A stretch of DNA of 64,000 nucleotides from Phycisphaerales bacterium (GTDB taxonomy: Bacteria; Planctomycetota; Phycisphaerae; Phycisphaerales; SM1A02). The DNA lies in contig JAQWNP010000017.1 of assembly GCA_029268515.1 (NCBI GenBank), positions 62,001 through 126,000 on the forward strand, read 5' to 3'. The position numbers and the translations under genes were made by a program. The notes beneath the pieces were generated by a model. The model did no database searches. It was not told where the DNA came from and saw only the letters and a list, made by a program, of their open reading frames with translations. Shown one piece after another: positions 40,908 to 49,479 of the stretch (the stretch's first letter is position 1; each line of letters opens with the position of its first letter).

Positions 40908-41168
40908 TTAGCCACCACTGACAGGTGGAATGATGGCGACGGTGTCACCATCATGTAGCTCGAGCTGTGGATTGGCATACGTCTCGTTCACCGCAAAAGC
41001 GAGGTGGCTTTTCTTTTCGTTGAATAATGGGTGTATGTCAATCAGGGCATTGATCGCATCGTTGACAGTGCATCCTTGAGGTAAGGACAAAGACAGTTTG
41101 TCCTGGCCGGTTTCCTCGGCCAGTTGTGCAAAGAGAAGCACGCGTATTGAAAGCATGGTTGTTGTCAT
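40908..41168 (-). CDS. moaD: MoaD/ThiS-family sulfur carrier (molybdopterin synthase small subunit)
   Basis: 86 aa, a ubiquitin-like fold with the essential C-terminal Gly-Gly (IIPPVSGG) that is thiocarboxylated before donating sulfur to precursor Z. It overlaps the moeA stop by 4 bp, so it is coupled and belongs to molybdenum-cofactor synthesis rather than thiamine synthesis. The moaE partner is not in the window. Confidence 0.88.
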   Translation of the reverse strand: MTTTMLSIRVLLFAQLAEETGQDKLSLSLPQGCTVNDAINALIDIHPLFNEKKSHLAFAVNETYANPQLELHDGDTVAIIPPVSGG

Positions 41169-42394
41169 TGTCTTGATGGCCAGGGTACGAAGGGTACTTC
41201 ACTTCCATTGGGTAATGGCTCGCTTTGCATTGGGAGTGCCACGACGCCGTTGGTTTTTGATGTGTGACTCAGATCGCCCGAACCTGCCCATTGAGGCACA
41301 TGGGCCGTATCGCCTGTGACTTGGGCAGGGCGAAAGGCTTGTCGTTTGGCATTTGGTTGAACTGGAGCGTTGAGTCGAACCTTGCGCCAGGGTAACTGCG
41401 TGTCGAGACCCAGCATGCCACGAATCAGTGGCCATATAAATAGTGTGCTGCACACCAATGCTGAAACAGGATTTCCTGGAAGGCCAATCACAAGAGCTTG
41501 GTTACATTGGCCAATCAGCACCGGCCGTCCGGGTTGCATGGCGCAGCCTTTGATCACTGTGGTCATGCCAAGTTTTTCAAGCGCACCTGGTACATGGTCA
41601 CGATCGCCGGCACTAATGCCCCCAACCGTAACGACCATGTCGGAATTTGAGGTGGCCTCAGCAAGTCCGGCGTGGATGACATCGAAATCATCTAGATAAT
41701 GTTCATGCGCAAGTACCTGGGCACCCATTTGATGCAACAATGCAGATGTTTGGGGGCCGTTGCTATTGCGTATCTGATGAGCTGCGGGGTTTGTGCCAGT
41801 TGCAACAAGTTCATCGCCTGTGGTGATGACCGTTGCTCTGGGATGCGACATGACTTCGAGCTTATCTGATCCGACTGTTGCAGCCAGACCAATGTGGTGA
41901 GCATTCACAGTCGAATATGGTGTGATGATTGTGTCGCCGGTACGAGCATCGGCGCCTTGTTTGTGCACACCTTGTCCGGCTTCAATCGAGCTGACAGAAA
42001 AGGTTACTGGTTTGCCCTGGCGATCACCGCGATCACTACGTTCGTGTGGGATCACAGCATCGAGGCCAGCAGGAAGTGGGGCACCAGTAGCAATAGCGAC
42101 GCAGCAATTAGATTCAACAGTGGGACTCTGTTGTGAGCCAGCGGCAATCGTAGCGGCGACTGGCCAGGTTCGATCATTTGAAAACGCTGCGGCTTGGACA
42201 GCATATCCATCCAAAGCAGAGCGGTTAAATGGGGGTAAATCTCGATCGGCTTTAACTGGTGTTGCGAGCACGCGACCAAGGCAATCGCTCAGTGGAACGA
42301 GCTCGGTTCGACTCAGTCTTTTTACGCCGACTTGAGCGCGCTCAATCGCTTCGTTGTAGTTAGGTAGTGCGGCAGTTGGAGGCGCCGTTGGCAT
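41165..42394 (-). CDS. moeA: Molybdopterin molybdotransferase MoeA
   Basis: 409 aa. Landmarks: PPFNRSALDGYAV near the N-terminus, IATGAPLPAGLDAVIPHE, the MPT-binding VTVGGISAGDRDHV, and the GLPGNPVSALV loop. It inserts molybdate into adenylylated molybdopterin. It forms a two-gene unit with moaD, which shares its last four bases. Divergent or upstream sequence (42395-42458) is only 64 bp, after the pseudopilin gene on the same strand. Confidence 0.94.
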   Translation of the reverse strand: MPTAPPTAALPNYNEAIERAQVGVKRLSRTELVPLSDCLGRVLATPVKADRDLPPFNRSALDGYAVQAAAFSNDRTWPVAATIAAGSQQSPTVESNCCVAIATGAPLPAGLDAVIPHERSDRGDRQGKPVTFSVSSIEAGQGVHKQGADARTGDTIITPYSTVNAHHIGLAATVGSDKLEVMSHPRATVITTGDELVATGTNPAAHQIRNSNGPQTSALLHQMGAQVLAHEHYLDDFDVIHAGLAEATSNSDMVVTVGGISAGDRDHVPGALEKLGMTTVIKGCAMQPGRPVLIGQCNQALVIGLPGNPVSALVCSTLFIWPLIRGMLGLDTQLPWRKVRLNAPVQPNAKRQAFRPAQVTGDTAHVPQWAGSGDLSHTSKTNGVVALPMQSEPLPNGSEVPFVPWPSRQ

Positions 42395-43326: not shown

Positions 43327-44238
43327 CTAAGGCCCCCAGTTGATGAGCATGATGCTGAAGTCAGCGAGATCAATGTTCCCGTCGAGGTTGAAGTCGGCAG
43401 GTATGCCACCAGGAATTGATGGGCCCCAGCCAATCAAGAGTTCAGAGAAGTCAATGAGATCGACTTGACCATCATCATTGACATCGCCGGGTCGACGTGG
43501 GTGAACATCGGCCACGGCATCAACTTCAGGAACAGTGACAGCCTCGAGGGGTACTGAGATCCGAATATAAGAGATTGCTTGAAGTTCTACCCATGCCAGA
43601 TCAATACCAGCGCCACCACCGCTGCCTCGATATAAGGTGCAGGCCTCTTCGGCGCTCAGATTGAGAAAGTTGTTGAATGTGAGGCGTGGGTCAACTGGCC
43701 GTGTCATGACACTCGGGCTGAAACCAGGTTCCTCGCTATAGGCCGGTACATCGGTGTAGCCCATCGTGGGAAAAAGCCCATCAGCTTGGATGCCATCAAC
43801 GGCGTGCCAGAGAACGCCATCAGTACTGACTTCAATGAGGCCACCTTCAGGCCCAATCATTCCGGTGACCGTCCCCTCGGCGGTGCTGGAATCAACAAAG
43901 CCAGAATTTCCAAAAACGAGCAGGTCAATGCCATAGGGATTATTCGGGTCGTCTGTGACTGGCGTATCGAATTTCAGAACCAGCGAGCCACCAGCGCCAA
44001 TCGAGACAATCTCATTGGTCATAAATGCGGGAAAGAAGGGGGTCACCGCGCCGGGGAGAAAACGTTCGCCAGTAAATCGCTCAGGTGCGCCCAAGGTTGT
44101 TTCGGGCGTGGTGTAACCAAGCGTGGCCCCGATGCCCTGGTCATATACAACAACTGAATCGGCAAAGGGATCATCGGTGTGGGCGACCACCGTTGTCATA
44201 CTCAATGTGATGGTTAGCAGCGTTAATCTTAAAAACAC
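43327..44238 (-). CDS. Secreted dockerin-module surface protein under cobalamin-riboswitch control
   Basis: 303 aa from the GTG at 44238, chosen because AAGGAACGAG lies upstream and the next residues (VFLRLTLLTITLSMTTVVA) form a signal peptide; the frame extends further but overlaps the leader RNA. The body is beta-rich, with SLVLKFDTPV, GIDLLVFGNSGFVD, GLIEVSTDGVLWHAVDG and AGIDLAWVELQAISYIRISV. This arrangement reminds me of the cell-surface proteins found beside BtuB in B12-uptake loci of Bacteroidota; that likeness is from memory. Two EF-hand-like repeats end the protein (DVNDDGQVDLIDF and DFNLDGNIDLADF). It is the first gene behind the riboswitch. Cobalamin capture at the surface is inferred. 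Confidence 0.78.
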   Translation of the reverse strand: MFLRLTLLTITLSMTTVVAHTDDPFADSVVVYDQGIGATLGYTTPETTLGAPERFTGERFLPGAVTPFFPAFMTNEIVSIGAGGSLVLKFDTPVTDDPNNPYGIDLLVFGNSGFVDSSTAEGTVTGMIGPEGGLIEVSTDGVLWHAVDGIQADGLFPTMGYTDVPAYSEEPGFSPSVMTRPVDPRLTFNNFLNLSAEEACTLYRGSGGGAGIDLAWVELQAISYIRISVPLEAVTVPEVDAVADVHPRRPGDVNDDGQVDLIDFSELLIGWGPSIPGGIPADFNLDGNIDLADFSIMLINWGP

Positions 44239-44306
44239 AGACTCGTTCCTTGCGGTCGGTGCCAGAAGATCCGCTGCATCTGAGCGATGCTTAGACCAGG
44301 TGACCG

Positions 44307-44336
44307 CGCCTGGCCGTGTTAACGGACTGCCAGGCG
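44307..44336 (-). promoter_or_regulatory. Leader hairpin, possible riboswitch expression platform
   Basis: A perfect 8-bp inverted repeat, CGCCTGGC/GCCAGGCG, with a 14-base loop lies between the cobalamin aptamer and the gene it precedes. It has no T-run behind it, so translational rather than transcriptional control is more likely. Confidence 0.45.
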
Positions 44337-44409
44337 AACCAAGGTCATGAGAAGAAACACAGCAAGCTGCGCTCATGCCCAATGATCGCGCGGGCAGCGC
44401 CAAAAATCA

Positions 44410-44588
44410 GCGGCAGGTCTTCCGGCTCCGGGAGGCTCCCACTTAATGTGCCCAGCCTTCCCAGTCAGAGCGCCAGCCAACAAATGTTGGGGGCGTTGAC
44501 CAGTGGCAAAGGGCGCGTGGGCTGCAAATGCAGGCAGGTCCCGTTACGGCGGCGCGTCCGCGGCGGCTTTTCACCGCCTTCCCTCGTG
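44410..44588 (-). promoter_or_regulatory. Cobalamin (B12) riboswitch
   Basis: Read on the minus strand, the conserved blocks occur in order with normal spacing: GAGGGAAGGCGGTGAAAAGC, the GCGGACGCGCCGCCGTAACGG junction, TTTGCCACTGG, GGGAAGGCTGGGC, and the closing GGAGCCGGAAGACCTGCC. This is the class that binds adenosyl- or related cobalamins and turns expression off when the vitamin is plentiful. The next start codon lies about 170 nt downstream and begins a secreted protein, not a cobalamin synthesis gene. Confidence 0.93.
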
Positions 44589-44638
44589 ATCAGGCCCTGT
44601 GTAAGTGCAGACATGGCCCAATACCTCTGATAGGGGTC

Positions 44639-44669
44639 AGTATAGCTCAATCGAGATCGCTCCTCCCAA
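44639..44669 (-). promoter_or_regulatory. Possible promoter for the riboswitch transcript
   Basis: TTGGGA (44664-44669) and TATACT (44639-44644) on the minus strand, with a 19-bp spacer, about 50 bp before the riboswitch. The spacer is long and the match is by eye. The rest of the gap from 44589 to 44992 has no gene; GGCCTGATCAYGAGG occurs in it twice (44582-44596 and 44746-44760, one mismatch). Confidence 0.3.
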
Positions 44670-47221: not shown

Positions 47222-47602
47222 TCAAGCGCAAGACGCACACAACCCAGAGAGGGTGAGATCGTGGTGTTCGAGTTTGAACCCTTCTGGGAGGAGTTTGTTT
47301 AATCCGCCCGGGCACCCATGAATATCGAAAAAGCTGTCACAAGTCGTGCAGTGAAAGTGGTGGTGGTGCTTGGCAGCCACAGTGGCCAGTTCGTATCGAT
47401 CGTTGCCTCCAGGTACTGCAACACGCACGATTTCACCTGCAGCCTCAAAGCGGCGAACCGCTCGGTAGACCGTTCGCAACCCGATGGATTCGATTTCCTG
47501 TTTTGCAAGTTGATGCAATTCATTAATCGATAGGGGCCGCTCGGCGGTCTCGATTGCGGCTCGGATGGTCTGAAGTTGTTTGGTTTGGCGCTCAGCGGTC
47601 AT
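47222..47602 (-). CDS. Fur-family metalloregulator, probably Zur
   Basis: 126 aa, one full Fur-type repressor. The N-terminal winged helix includes PLSINELHQLAKQEI and RTVYRAVRRFEAAGEI. The C-terminal dimerisation/metal domain has the His-rich HHHHFHCTTCDSFFDI and the closing LSGLCASC, giving the two CxxC pairs of a structural zinc site. Which metal it senses cannot be read from the sequence alone. The adjacent divergent genes include a protein like the Zur-repressed all3515 family, which favours zinc. It is divergent from them across a 167-bp gap that holds an inverted repeat. Its stop codon touches the tRNA-Thr gene. Confidence 0.85.
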   Translation of the reverse strand: MTAERQTKQLQTIRAAIETAERPLSINELHQLAKQEIESIGLRTVYRAVRRFEAAGEIVRVAVPGGNDRYELATVAAKHHHHFHCTTCDSFFDIHGCPGGLNKLLPEGFKLEHHDLTLSGLCASCA

Positions 47603-47769: not shown

Positions 47770-48531
47770 ATGATGTTGACAAGTCATCAAAATCGGACAC
47801 ATCGCGGGTTCACCGTTATTGAGCTGGTTGTCGTGATGGGGATTATTTCGATATTGGCTGCGATTCTCATACCTTCGATTGCGGGGCTCAGGCATCGAGC
47901 GTTTGTTGCCACAGATGTATTGAATCTTCGTTCGCTTCAGATAGCCCACTATCAGTATGCAGTAGACGAAGATGGGAAATTTGCTGATGCAGGGCTTGCT
48001 CATGGAGGCCTTGCAAACGAAGAAATAGCTTGGCTGAATCTCGTTGGCGAGTATGTAGATCTCGATGGTGTTATTCGATCGCCACTGGATACAAGTCCAC
48101 ACTGGGAAACACCAGTTGAGGGTACGACGAATCGATTCCGTCGGACCAGTTACGGTTGGAATAACTATCTTTCCCGTACGCATTCACCTGACGCAGCAAT
48201 CGATCCAAGGCAGGCTGTGGATCGGATGAGTAAATTAAAGAATCCGGCAAAGACAGTGCATTTTTTGCATATGGCAGCCACAGGATCTTTTGCTGGAGCT
48301 GATCATGTTCATGTCGAGAATTGGTGGATTGGCGACTCTCATCCAGACGCCCCACCAGTTTTGGCATCCAATCAAGTTCAGACCAACGCTGTTTCCGGCA
48401 AGCCACATTCATCTCAGGCGAAGTCAAACTATGGATTTGTAGATGGTCATGTCGAAACCCGGCATTTCTTTGATGTTTATGTTGATCCCAATCGTAATTC
48501 CTTTAACCCTGAAAATGCTCCTTTGTTTTAA
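47770..48531 (+). CDS. Pseudopilin-like secreted protein (zinc locus)
   Basis: 253 aa. The prepilin signal is HRG|FTVIELVVVMGIISILAA with Glu at +5, followed by a long N-terminal helix. The C-terminal region contains NYGFVDGHVETRH, the DG-H segment seen in planctomycete pseudopilins, and several His residues (AGADHVHVENWW) that could bind metal. It is the first gene after the putative Zur operator, and the secreted all3515-like protein follows 24 bp downstream. It pairs with the pseudopilin of the cobalamin locus at 42459, but the two share only the general plan. Two adjacent ATG codons could serve as start. Confidence 0.83.
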   Translation: MMLTSHQNRTHRGFTVIELVVVMGIISILAAILIPSIAGLRHRAFVATDVLNLRSLQIAHYQYAVDEDGKFADAGLAHGGLANEEIAWLNLVGEYVDLDGVIRSPLDTSPHWETPVEGTTNRFRRTSYGWNNYLSRTHSPDAAIDPRQAVDRMSKLKNPAKTVHFLHMAATGSFAGADHVHVENWWIGDSHPDAPPVLASNQVQTNAVSGKPHSSQAKSNYGFVDGHVETRHFFDVYVDPNRNSFNPENAPLF

Positions 48532-48555
48532 AAACTTTAAGTACGAAAGACGAAT

Positions 48556-49479
48556 TTGTTAATGTCATTCCCATTTAATAAAAAAGTCAGTCAATTCAAA
48601 ACCGTTGGAACGCTTGTTTTATTCGCAACCGTGACCCCTCTTTTGGCATTTGTCCAAGACGCCGCAGCTCAACATGCTGGAGATATCTTCATTAATGTTC
48701 AAGCAGACAAGATCCATACTGGATTGGTCGAGGATGATGAAGTAGTCGAATCAAATGAACGTGTCTTTGAGTCGGAGTTGGGTGAATCTGGTGTGCCGGG
48801 TTTCTCCGATGAGCCTGGTTGGGAGGCATTCCCAGGCACCTTTGAGCCTGGGTCTAGCTTAGGCTGGAACGCCTTAGCGGGCGTTGGTCGATGGAACGGT
48901 TCTGGTTTTGACACTGGAATTGACGAGACCATTGAGGTGGCTTTTGCAAGTCTTTCCTTTACGATCGGTAACGCACCTATCAATGGCTTTGAACTTGTAG
49001 TTGCGGCAGATGGTAGTTTTCATCGTCACATCAGTTTCTATCTCGATAGCCCCACCAATGATCCCGCAGTAGGTATTTATCTTGTGGAGTTGGAGCTACA
49101 TGCTCTTGGAGATTATGAGACTTCTGATTCTTTCTGGATTGTGTTTAACAATTTGGCGAGTGAAGAAGATCACGAGGCCGCGGTGGAGTGGGTCGAAGAG
49201 AATATGGCCAATGAACTTCGCTGCACTGGAGATCTGACTGGTGACAATGTGGTCGACCTTGCAGATTTCTCTGAGTTTCTGATTCAGTTTGGCAACGTTG
49301 GTAATGGCTTGTCAGCAGACTTGGATGAGGATCAAGACGTTGACGTCAATGATTTCTCTGAGTTCTTAGTAAACTTCGGCAATACTTGCGAGGAACGCAG
49401 CACTGTCGTTGAGACAGCTCCTACGAAGGCTTCGCCAAAGAAAAACAGTCGCGGCGGCATACTCGGATCGGTCAAGTAA
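48556..49479 (+). CDS. Secreted dockerin-module protein, all3515-like (zinc-responsive)
   Basis: 307 aa. A signal peptide (TVGTLVLFATVTPLLAFV, then AAAQHAGDIFI) precedes a beta-rich body. The segments SDEPGWEAFPGTF, HRHISFYLDSP, VGIYLVELELHAL, SDSFWIVFNNLASEEDHEAA match, from memory, the family named in databases as all3515 family Zur-repressed PEP-CTERM protein. In place of PEP-CTERM it ends with two EF-hand-like repeats (DLTGDNVVDLADF and DLDEDQDVDVNDF) and a Lys-rich tail. It probably acts at the cell surface in zinc-limited cells; zinc binding is not shown. It follows the pseudopilin by 24 bp and ends at a strong terminator. Confidence 0.75.
   Translation: MLMSFPFNKKVSQFKTVGTLVLFATVTPLLAFVQDAAAQHAGDIFINVQADKIHTGLVEDDEVVESNERVFESELGESGVPGFSDEPGWEAFPGTFEPGSSLGWNALAGVGRWNGSGFDTGIDETIEVAFASLSFTIGNAPINGFELVVAADGSFHRHISFYLDSPTNDPAVGIYLVELELHALGDYETSDSFWIVFNNLASEEDHEAAVEWVEENMANELRCTGDLTGDNVVDLADFSEFLIQFGNVGNGLSADLDEDQDVDVNDFSEFLVNFGNTCEERSTVVETAPTKASPKKNSRGGILGSVK

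Follow-up and report, generated by a model that had tools for sequence, protein, structure and literature searches.

A cobalamin riboswitch heads a two-gene unit for a distantly BtuH-like secreted protein and a pseudopilin in a planctomycete

The window analyzed here, a stretch of 64,000 nucleotides from a Phycisphaerales bacterium, carries on its minus strand a cobalamin riboswitch followed by a unit of 2 genes, the first encoding a secreted domain protein (P0001) and the second a pseudopilin (P0002). The aptamer (44395..44643, minus strand) scored 69.3 bits over the full length (1–189) of the RF00174 model (gathering score, 31.5; E 5.2e-15) and was the single cobalamin riboswitch detected by Rfam cmscan in the window. 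A covariance search of the whole 3.2 Mb genome (99.5% complete) identified it as the only cobalamin aptamer above the cut-off, a weaker match of 24.9 bits being located on a different contig. The search against the riboswitch family thus bore out the minus-strand aptamer described in the earlier note, where the interval 43327–44588 took in the aptamer but cut off about 55 nt at its 5′ end. A second, degenerate aptamer copy upstream was considered and rejected, as no direct repeat was found. The sequence between the aptamer and the GTG start of the first gene (44239..44394, minus strand) is the leader and presumed expression platform; it contains no terminator-like site, and its predicted fold is not clearly better than those of shuffled sequences (z −1.5). 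Because no terminator was found in the leader, we propose that the riboswitch probably controls the two-gene unit at the level of translation.

The first gene (43327..44238, minus strand) encodes P0001, a protein of 303 aa when translated from the GTG at 44238. The first listed start of its open reading frame, a TTG at 44403, falls inside the aptamer, and GTG 44238 is the likelier start because it is preceded by AAGGA and followed by a signal peptide. This peptide (MFLRLTLLTITLSMTTVVAH; 44179..44238, minus strand), recognized by eye as a hydrophobic N-terminus, reads without a lipobox cysteine. The secreted protein consists of a beta-rich domain of about 210 residues, with the region conserved throughout the family at 43510..44184 (minus strand; profile A1, E 2.4e-95), and a dockerin-like C-terminus at 43348..43491 (minus strand; Pfam Dockerin_1, E 1.7e-4). 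The dockerin module named in the earlier note is therefore present as a C-terminal likeness but is weak, scoring 22.2 bits, just under the cut-off of 22.9. C-termini of P0001 relatives, as read from their sequences, are dockerin-like or PEP-CTERM-like, and the tail of P0001 would serve as a surface attachment signal that places the protein at the cell surface. The main domain matched no Pfam or NCBIfam family, direct searches of the PDB with P0001 or its profile returned nothing significant, and no relatives were found in a search of viral contigs. Assignment of P0001 to DUF4465/BtuJ (PF14717) was rejected, with no match to this family in P0001 or anywhere in the genome. An AlphaFold2 model from an input of 2 sequences only, P0001 and its L003 homologue, had a pLDDT of 32.6. 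As previously stated, the first gene is not one for B12 synthesis or for a TonB receptor; overlooked at that stage were that the adjacent gene encodes a dedicated pseudopilin and that the genome has no TonB receptors.

P0002 (42459..43325, minus strand) has a prepilin-type N-terminus (N_methyl, 26.7 bits; cut-off, 21.2), and its GTG start lies 1 nt past the P0001 stop. Farther downstream, a moeA-like gene on the same strand starts 64 nt past the pilin stop, and the aptamer could accordingly be read as mainly regulating the moeA/moaD-like genes at 40908–42394, with the surface protein incidental. We regard this as very improbable, since many genomes keep both the domain protein and the pilin downstream of the riboswitch, and no molybdopterin gene is found among the conserved neighbor clusters.

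Of 198 genomes sampled in the class, 94 contain relatives of the P0001 domain, and a profile search recovered relatives, more sparsely, across the phylum. An upstream cobalamin aptamer on the same strand accompanied 45 of the 48 homologue loci checked overall (26/28 close and 19/20 distant homologues), and at the single distant locus lacking it, L078, the contig ends at the gene. The planctomycete MAG locus L003 displays the same order as the window, with the aptamer followed by the domain protein and the pilin. Throughout the phylum, this domain keeps its association with cobalamin riboswitches. In the class-wide search that started from the riboswitch, aptamers were present in 180 of the 198 genomes, mostly one in each. 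Among the 150 matches listed, 60 aptamers preceded the domain on its own strand at a distance of up to 3.5 kb, a further 11 preceded only a second secreted family (see below), and 1 was near the domain but wrongly oriented. When 20 of the other 79 listed aptamers were sampled with broader profiles, 14 preceded a BtuH-like domain and 1 the second secreted family, many of the class-wide domain matches resting on profiles built in this analysis. The remaining 5 stood ahead of different secreted proteins, a PQQ-type propeller, or a pilin directly, and the prepilin motif followed in all 5. At loci L130, L131, and L142, the cobalamin riboswitch is followed by a different, unrelated-looking secreted protein and then by a gene in which the prepilin motif recurs.

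The relationship of P0001 to proteins of known structure was traced through bridging sequences. A bait fragment, modeled on a motif of Bacteroidota surface proteins, was searched against the PDB and retrieved 7BIZ (BtuH2) and 8BLW (BtuG1). A divergent P0001 relative, the L093 protein, matches the same structures (8BLW, E 4.5e-19; 7BIZ, E 5.7e-18), and hhalign comparison of the P0001 family with 5 bridging proteins yielded a probability of 99.3 (E 1e-20), versus at most 1.2 for 4 unrelated neighbor families used as controls. These comparisons support a distant relationship between the P0001 domain and the B12-binding domain at the C-terminus of BtuH2 and BtuG1, and the bridging sequences and profile–profile comparison bear out the likeness to Bacteroidota surface proteins encoded beside BtuB that had been suspected from the layout of the protein. 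The homology is distant and transitive, because the P0001 profile alone misses these structures in a database search.

To compare contact residues, we used a BtuH2 numbering equal to the 7BIZ chain index plus 100, derived from the alignments and in agreement for Gln333, Asn399, Phe401, His476, Trp577, and Leu578. Asn399 of BtuH2 contacts the phosphate of B12 (PMC8941943). Its equivalent in P0001 is encoded at 43906..43908 (minus strand). This asparagine forms an invariant column in profile A1 and, when 7BIZ and 8BLW are aligned together with the family, is present in 27 of 27 sequences. At position 401 most sequences have an aromatic residue, but the window protein has a Gly followed by a Phe. 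Several BtuH2 contact residues are missing from the family, and P0001 is therefore a putative B12 binder: the relation of its scaffold to BtuH is supported, and the B12 pocket appears partly retained at best.

The same alignment bears on a different reading, in which P0001 would keep the BtuH-like scaffold but bind some other target that is wanted when B12 is short, for example cobalt, a precursor of cobamides, a polysaccharide, or a partner cell that supplies B12. Among the BtuH2 contacts within the aligned fragments, which do not extend to Tyr510 and Trp511, only Asn399 is invariant in the P0001 family, Gln333, His476, and Trp577 being unconserved, and the authors of the BtuH2 study noted that the domain scaffold resembles the alginate lyase AlyQ, a resemblance they judged unrelated to B12 binding (PMC8941943). 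The invariant asparagine, however, corresponds to a contact with the B12 phosphate, a cobamide-specific feature, and the domain shows a BtuG1-like fusion to a propeller as well as a link to the second family found with these riboswitches. We consider a different ligand fairly unlikely and retain cobamide as the probable target. As far as can be told, the P0001 module works like BtuH, from which it is nevertheless set apart because the contact residues, the domain layout, and the partner receptor differ.

The propeller fusion was observed at locus L091 (1625–6061), where a 108.7-bit cobalamin aptamer precedes a gene for a 1,479-residue protein with an N-terminal YVTN-type propeller (1L0Q, E 1.5e-12) joined to a BtuH-like domain, an arrangement that recalls the layout of BtuG1. 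A cluster of separate propeller genes occurs in 10 neighborhoods, usually with the domain protein on one side and the pilin on the other, and both members scanned match PQQ_2. The first genes of L085 and L086 are propeller-like by eye; neither has a Pfam match, and L086 lacks a solved-structure match as well.

In 29 of 52 cases, the second secreted family has a BtuH-like domain within 4 kb on its own strand, and in several genomes the 2 are fused. A copy in the genome studied here (C10:227988–228380; L097 5902–6516) encodes a small protein with a weak AdoCbl-type aptamer ahead of it; in other genomes, members of this family stand behind strong cobalamin riboswitches. Cobalamin-type aptamers were detected at 11 of the 14 second-family loci scanned at E values up to 0.05, 3 of the 11 being below the Rfam cut-off. 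Loci L111, L118, and L122 yielded no aptamer match, and L112, L121, and L123 only sub-threshold AdoCbl-type matches; these loci may carry a lineage-specific aptamer variant. A possible resemblance of the family to DUF4430, the transcobalamin C-terminal domain, received no support from Pfam and PDB searches.

The pseudopilin is the second recurrent component of these loci. At 44 of 60 riboswitch loci, the prepilin motif occurs on the sense strand no more than 6.5 kb downstream, a biased fraction in that most loci were picked for having a BtuH-like domain. On the antisense strand of the same 60 loci it was found at none, and in upstream stretches at 1 of 36. A profile was built from the riboswitch-linked pilins of other genomes, excluding P0002 and omitting the N-terminal pilin segment; P0002 scored 124.6 bits against it, and the highest score among the remaining pilins of the genome was 26.6. 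In a BLAST search of P0002 against riboswitch-linked and own-genome pilins, 30 of 30 among the matches listed were riboswitch-linked. By these sequence comparisons, made with riboswitch-linked pilins and the pilins of its own genome, P0002 is a member of a distinct pilin subfamily specific to cobalamin riboswitch operons. We know of no filament role for this subfamily.

Pilin-like genes are common in planctomycetes, and P0002 might be a generic neighbor with no B12-specific role if pilin-like and secreted dockerin proteins are often paired. The window itself holds a second such pair at 47770–49479, consisting of a pilin gene (47770–48531) and a gene for a secreted dockerin-domain protein (48556–49479). 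Yet the genome's pilin loci that were inspected (the prepilin motif has 25 matches in all) contained only one clear pair of this type besides P0001/P0002; at one further locus, dockerin-like open reading frames lie nearby but do not clearly form an operon with the pilin. The score difference between P0002 and the other own-genome pilins also speaks against a generic neighbor, as does locus L134, where the riboswitch leads directly to a pilin and then to lipid-synthesis-like genes, with no secreted binder between. A generic role is, in our estimation, unlikely, and we favor a pilin dedicated to the cobalamin regulon. As to the second pair in the window, a Fur-family regulator gene (47222–47602, minus strand) is divergent from its pilin gene, and that pair is perhaps metal-regulated.

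The genome encodes no TonB plug domain (PF07715) detectable by a search that was positive in E. coli, Caulobacter, and Bacteroides. The plug domain was equally missing from 23 of the 30 genomes with the strongest P0001 homologues, and in the class sample at least 104 of 198 genomes have a cobalamin riboswitch and no detectable TonB plug, a number derived from 180 riboswitch genomes and 76 plug genomes. A candidate for the inner-membrane step is a BtuFCD-like cluster on contig C3 (L096 5480–8188) comprising a periplasmic-binding protein, a FecCD permease, and an ABC ATPase, at which the genome-wide search detected no cobalamin riboswitch. This transporter could serve cobamide import; it could instead carry iron chelates, the best PDB matches of its binding protein being siderophore binders (FhuD). 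The genome has 4 B12-binding domains. Pili-like fibers of planctomycetes bind dextran, and the authors of that work speculate that crateriform structures mediate uptake (PMC5394234); by analogy, the idea might extend to B12.

Taken together, we consider it probable that P0001 and P0002 form a surface module for cobamide capture induced by B12 starvation, a divergent variant of the BtuH type with a pseudopilin as partner. At low cytoplasmic cobalamin, the empty aptamer would allow expression of the two-gene unit, and at high cobalamin the bound aptamer would turn the unit off, probably at translation. P0001 would then be exported and held at the surface by its dockerin-like tail, where its divergent BtuH-type domain would catch cobamide, and the pseudopilin would presumably display, assemble, or move the binder. 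Because the genome lacks a TonB plug protein, capture would not be followed by import through BtuB; cobamide would reach the periplasm by a non-BtuB route and then be taken up by the BtuFCD-like ABC transporter encoded on a different contig. Possibly, the pseudopilus is used in place of BtuB. Still more tentative, and rather less than probable in our judgment, is a class-wide B12 uptake system free of BtuB and independent of TonB, in which BtuH-like binders and a regulon-specific pseudopilin would constitute a riboswitch-controlled pseudopilus.

What is understood of B12 uptake in gram-negative bacteria centers on BtuB and the surface proteins that assist it, for which Bacteroides provides the best-known examples. 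Across the planctomycete class, cobalamin riboswitches head operons that combine BtuH-like or other secreted proteins with a dedicated pseudopilin, and the titles, abstracts, and term counts searched, with few subscription journals among the sources, contained no description of such operons in planctomycetes. The combination of a riboswitch, a BtuH relative, and a pilin-like partner in a genome without TonB-type receptors suggests a mode of vitamin B12 capture that has not been studied. A previously unnamed protein domain thereby gains a likely function, and B12 uptake by planctomycetes becomes a directly testable question.

Among known systems, the closest counterpart is the C-terminal domain of BtuH2 (BT1956; 7BIZ) of Bacteroides thetaiotaomicron, to which P0001 shows distant homology over the whole domain. 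The 2 proteins have in common export, a place under a cobalamin riboswitch, and the asparagine equivalent to Asn399, whereas P0001 lacks the PKD/Ig-like domains and the lipoprotein cysteine, comes from a genome without BtuB or a TonB receptor, belongs to a type with dockerin or PEP-CTERM tails, and has a pseudopilin as its partner. BtuG1, or BtuGH (BT1490; 8BLW), matches the bridging homologues through its BtuH-like part; in contrast to BtuG1, P0001 has neither a propeller (no propeller family matched) nor a BtuB partner. DUF4465/BtuJ proteins are, like P0001, secreted and beta-rich; they capture B12 and extend to planctomycetes, Mucisphaera calidilacus having a DUF4465 B12 binder (PMC13398666). 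The pseudopilins of type II secretion systems and type IV pili, finally, share the prepilin N-terminus with P0002, which differs from them in belonging to a subfamily tied to cobalamin riboswitch operons.
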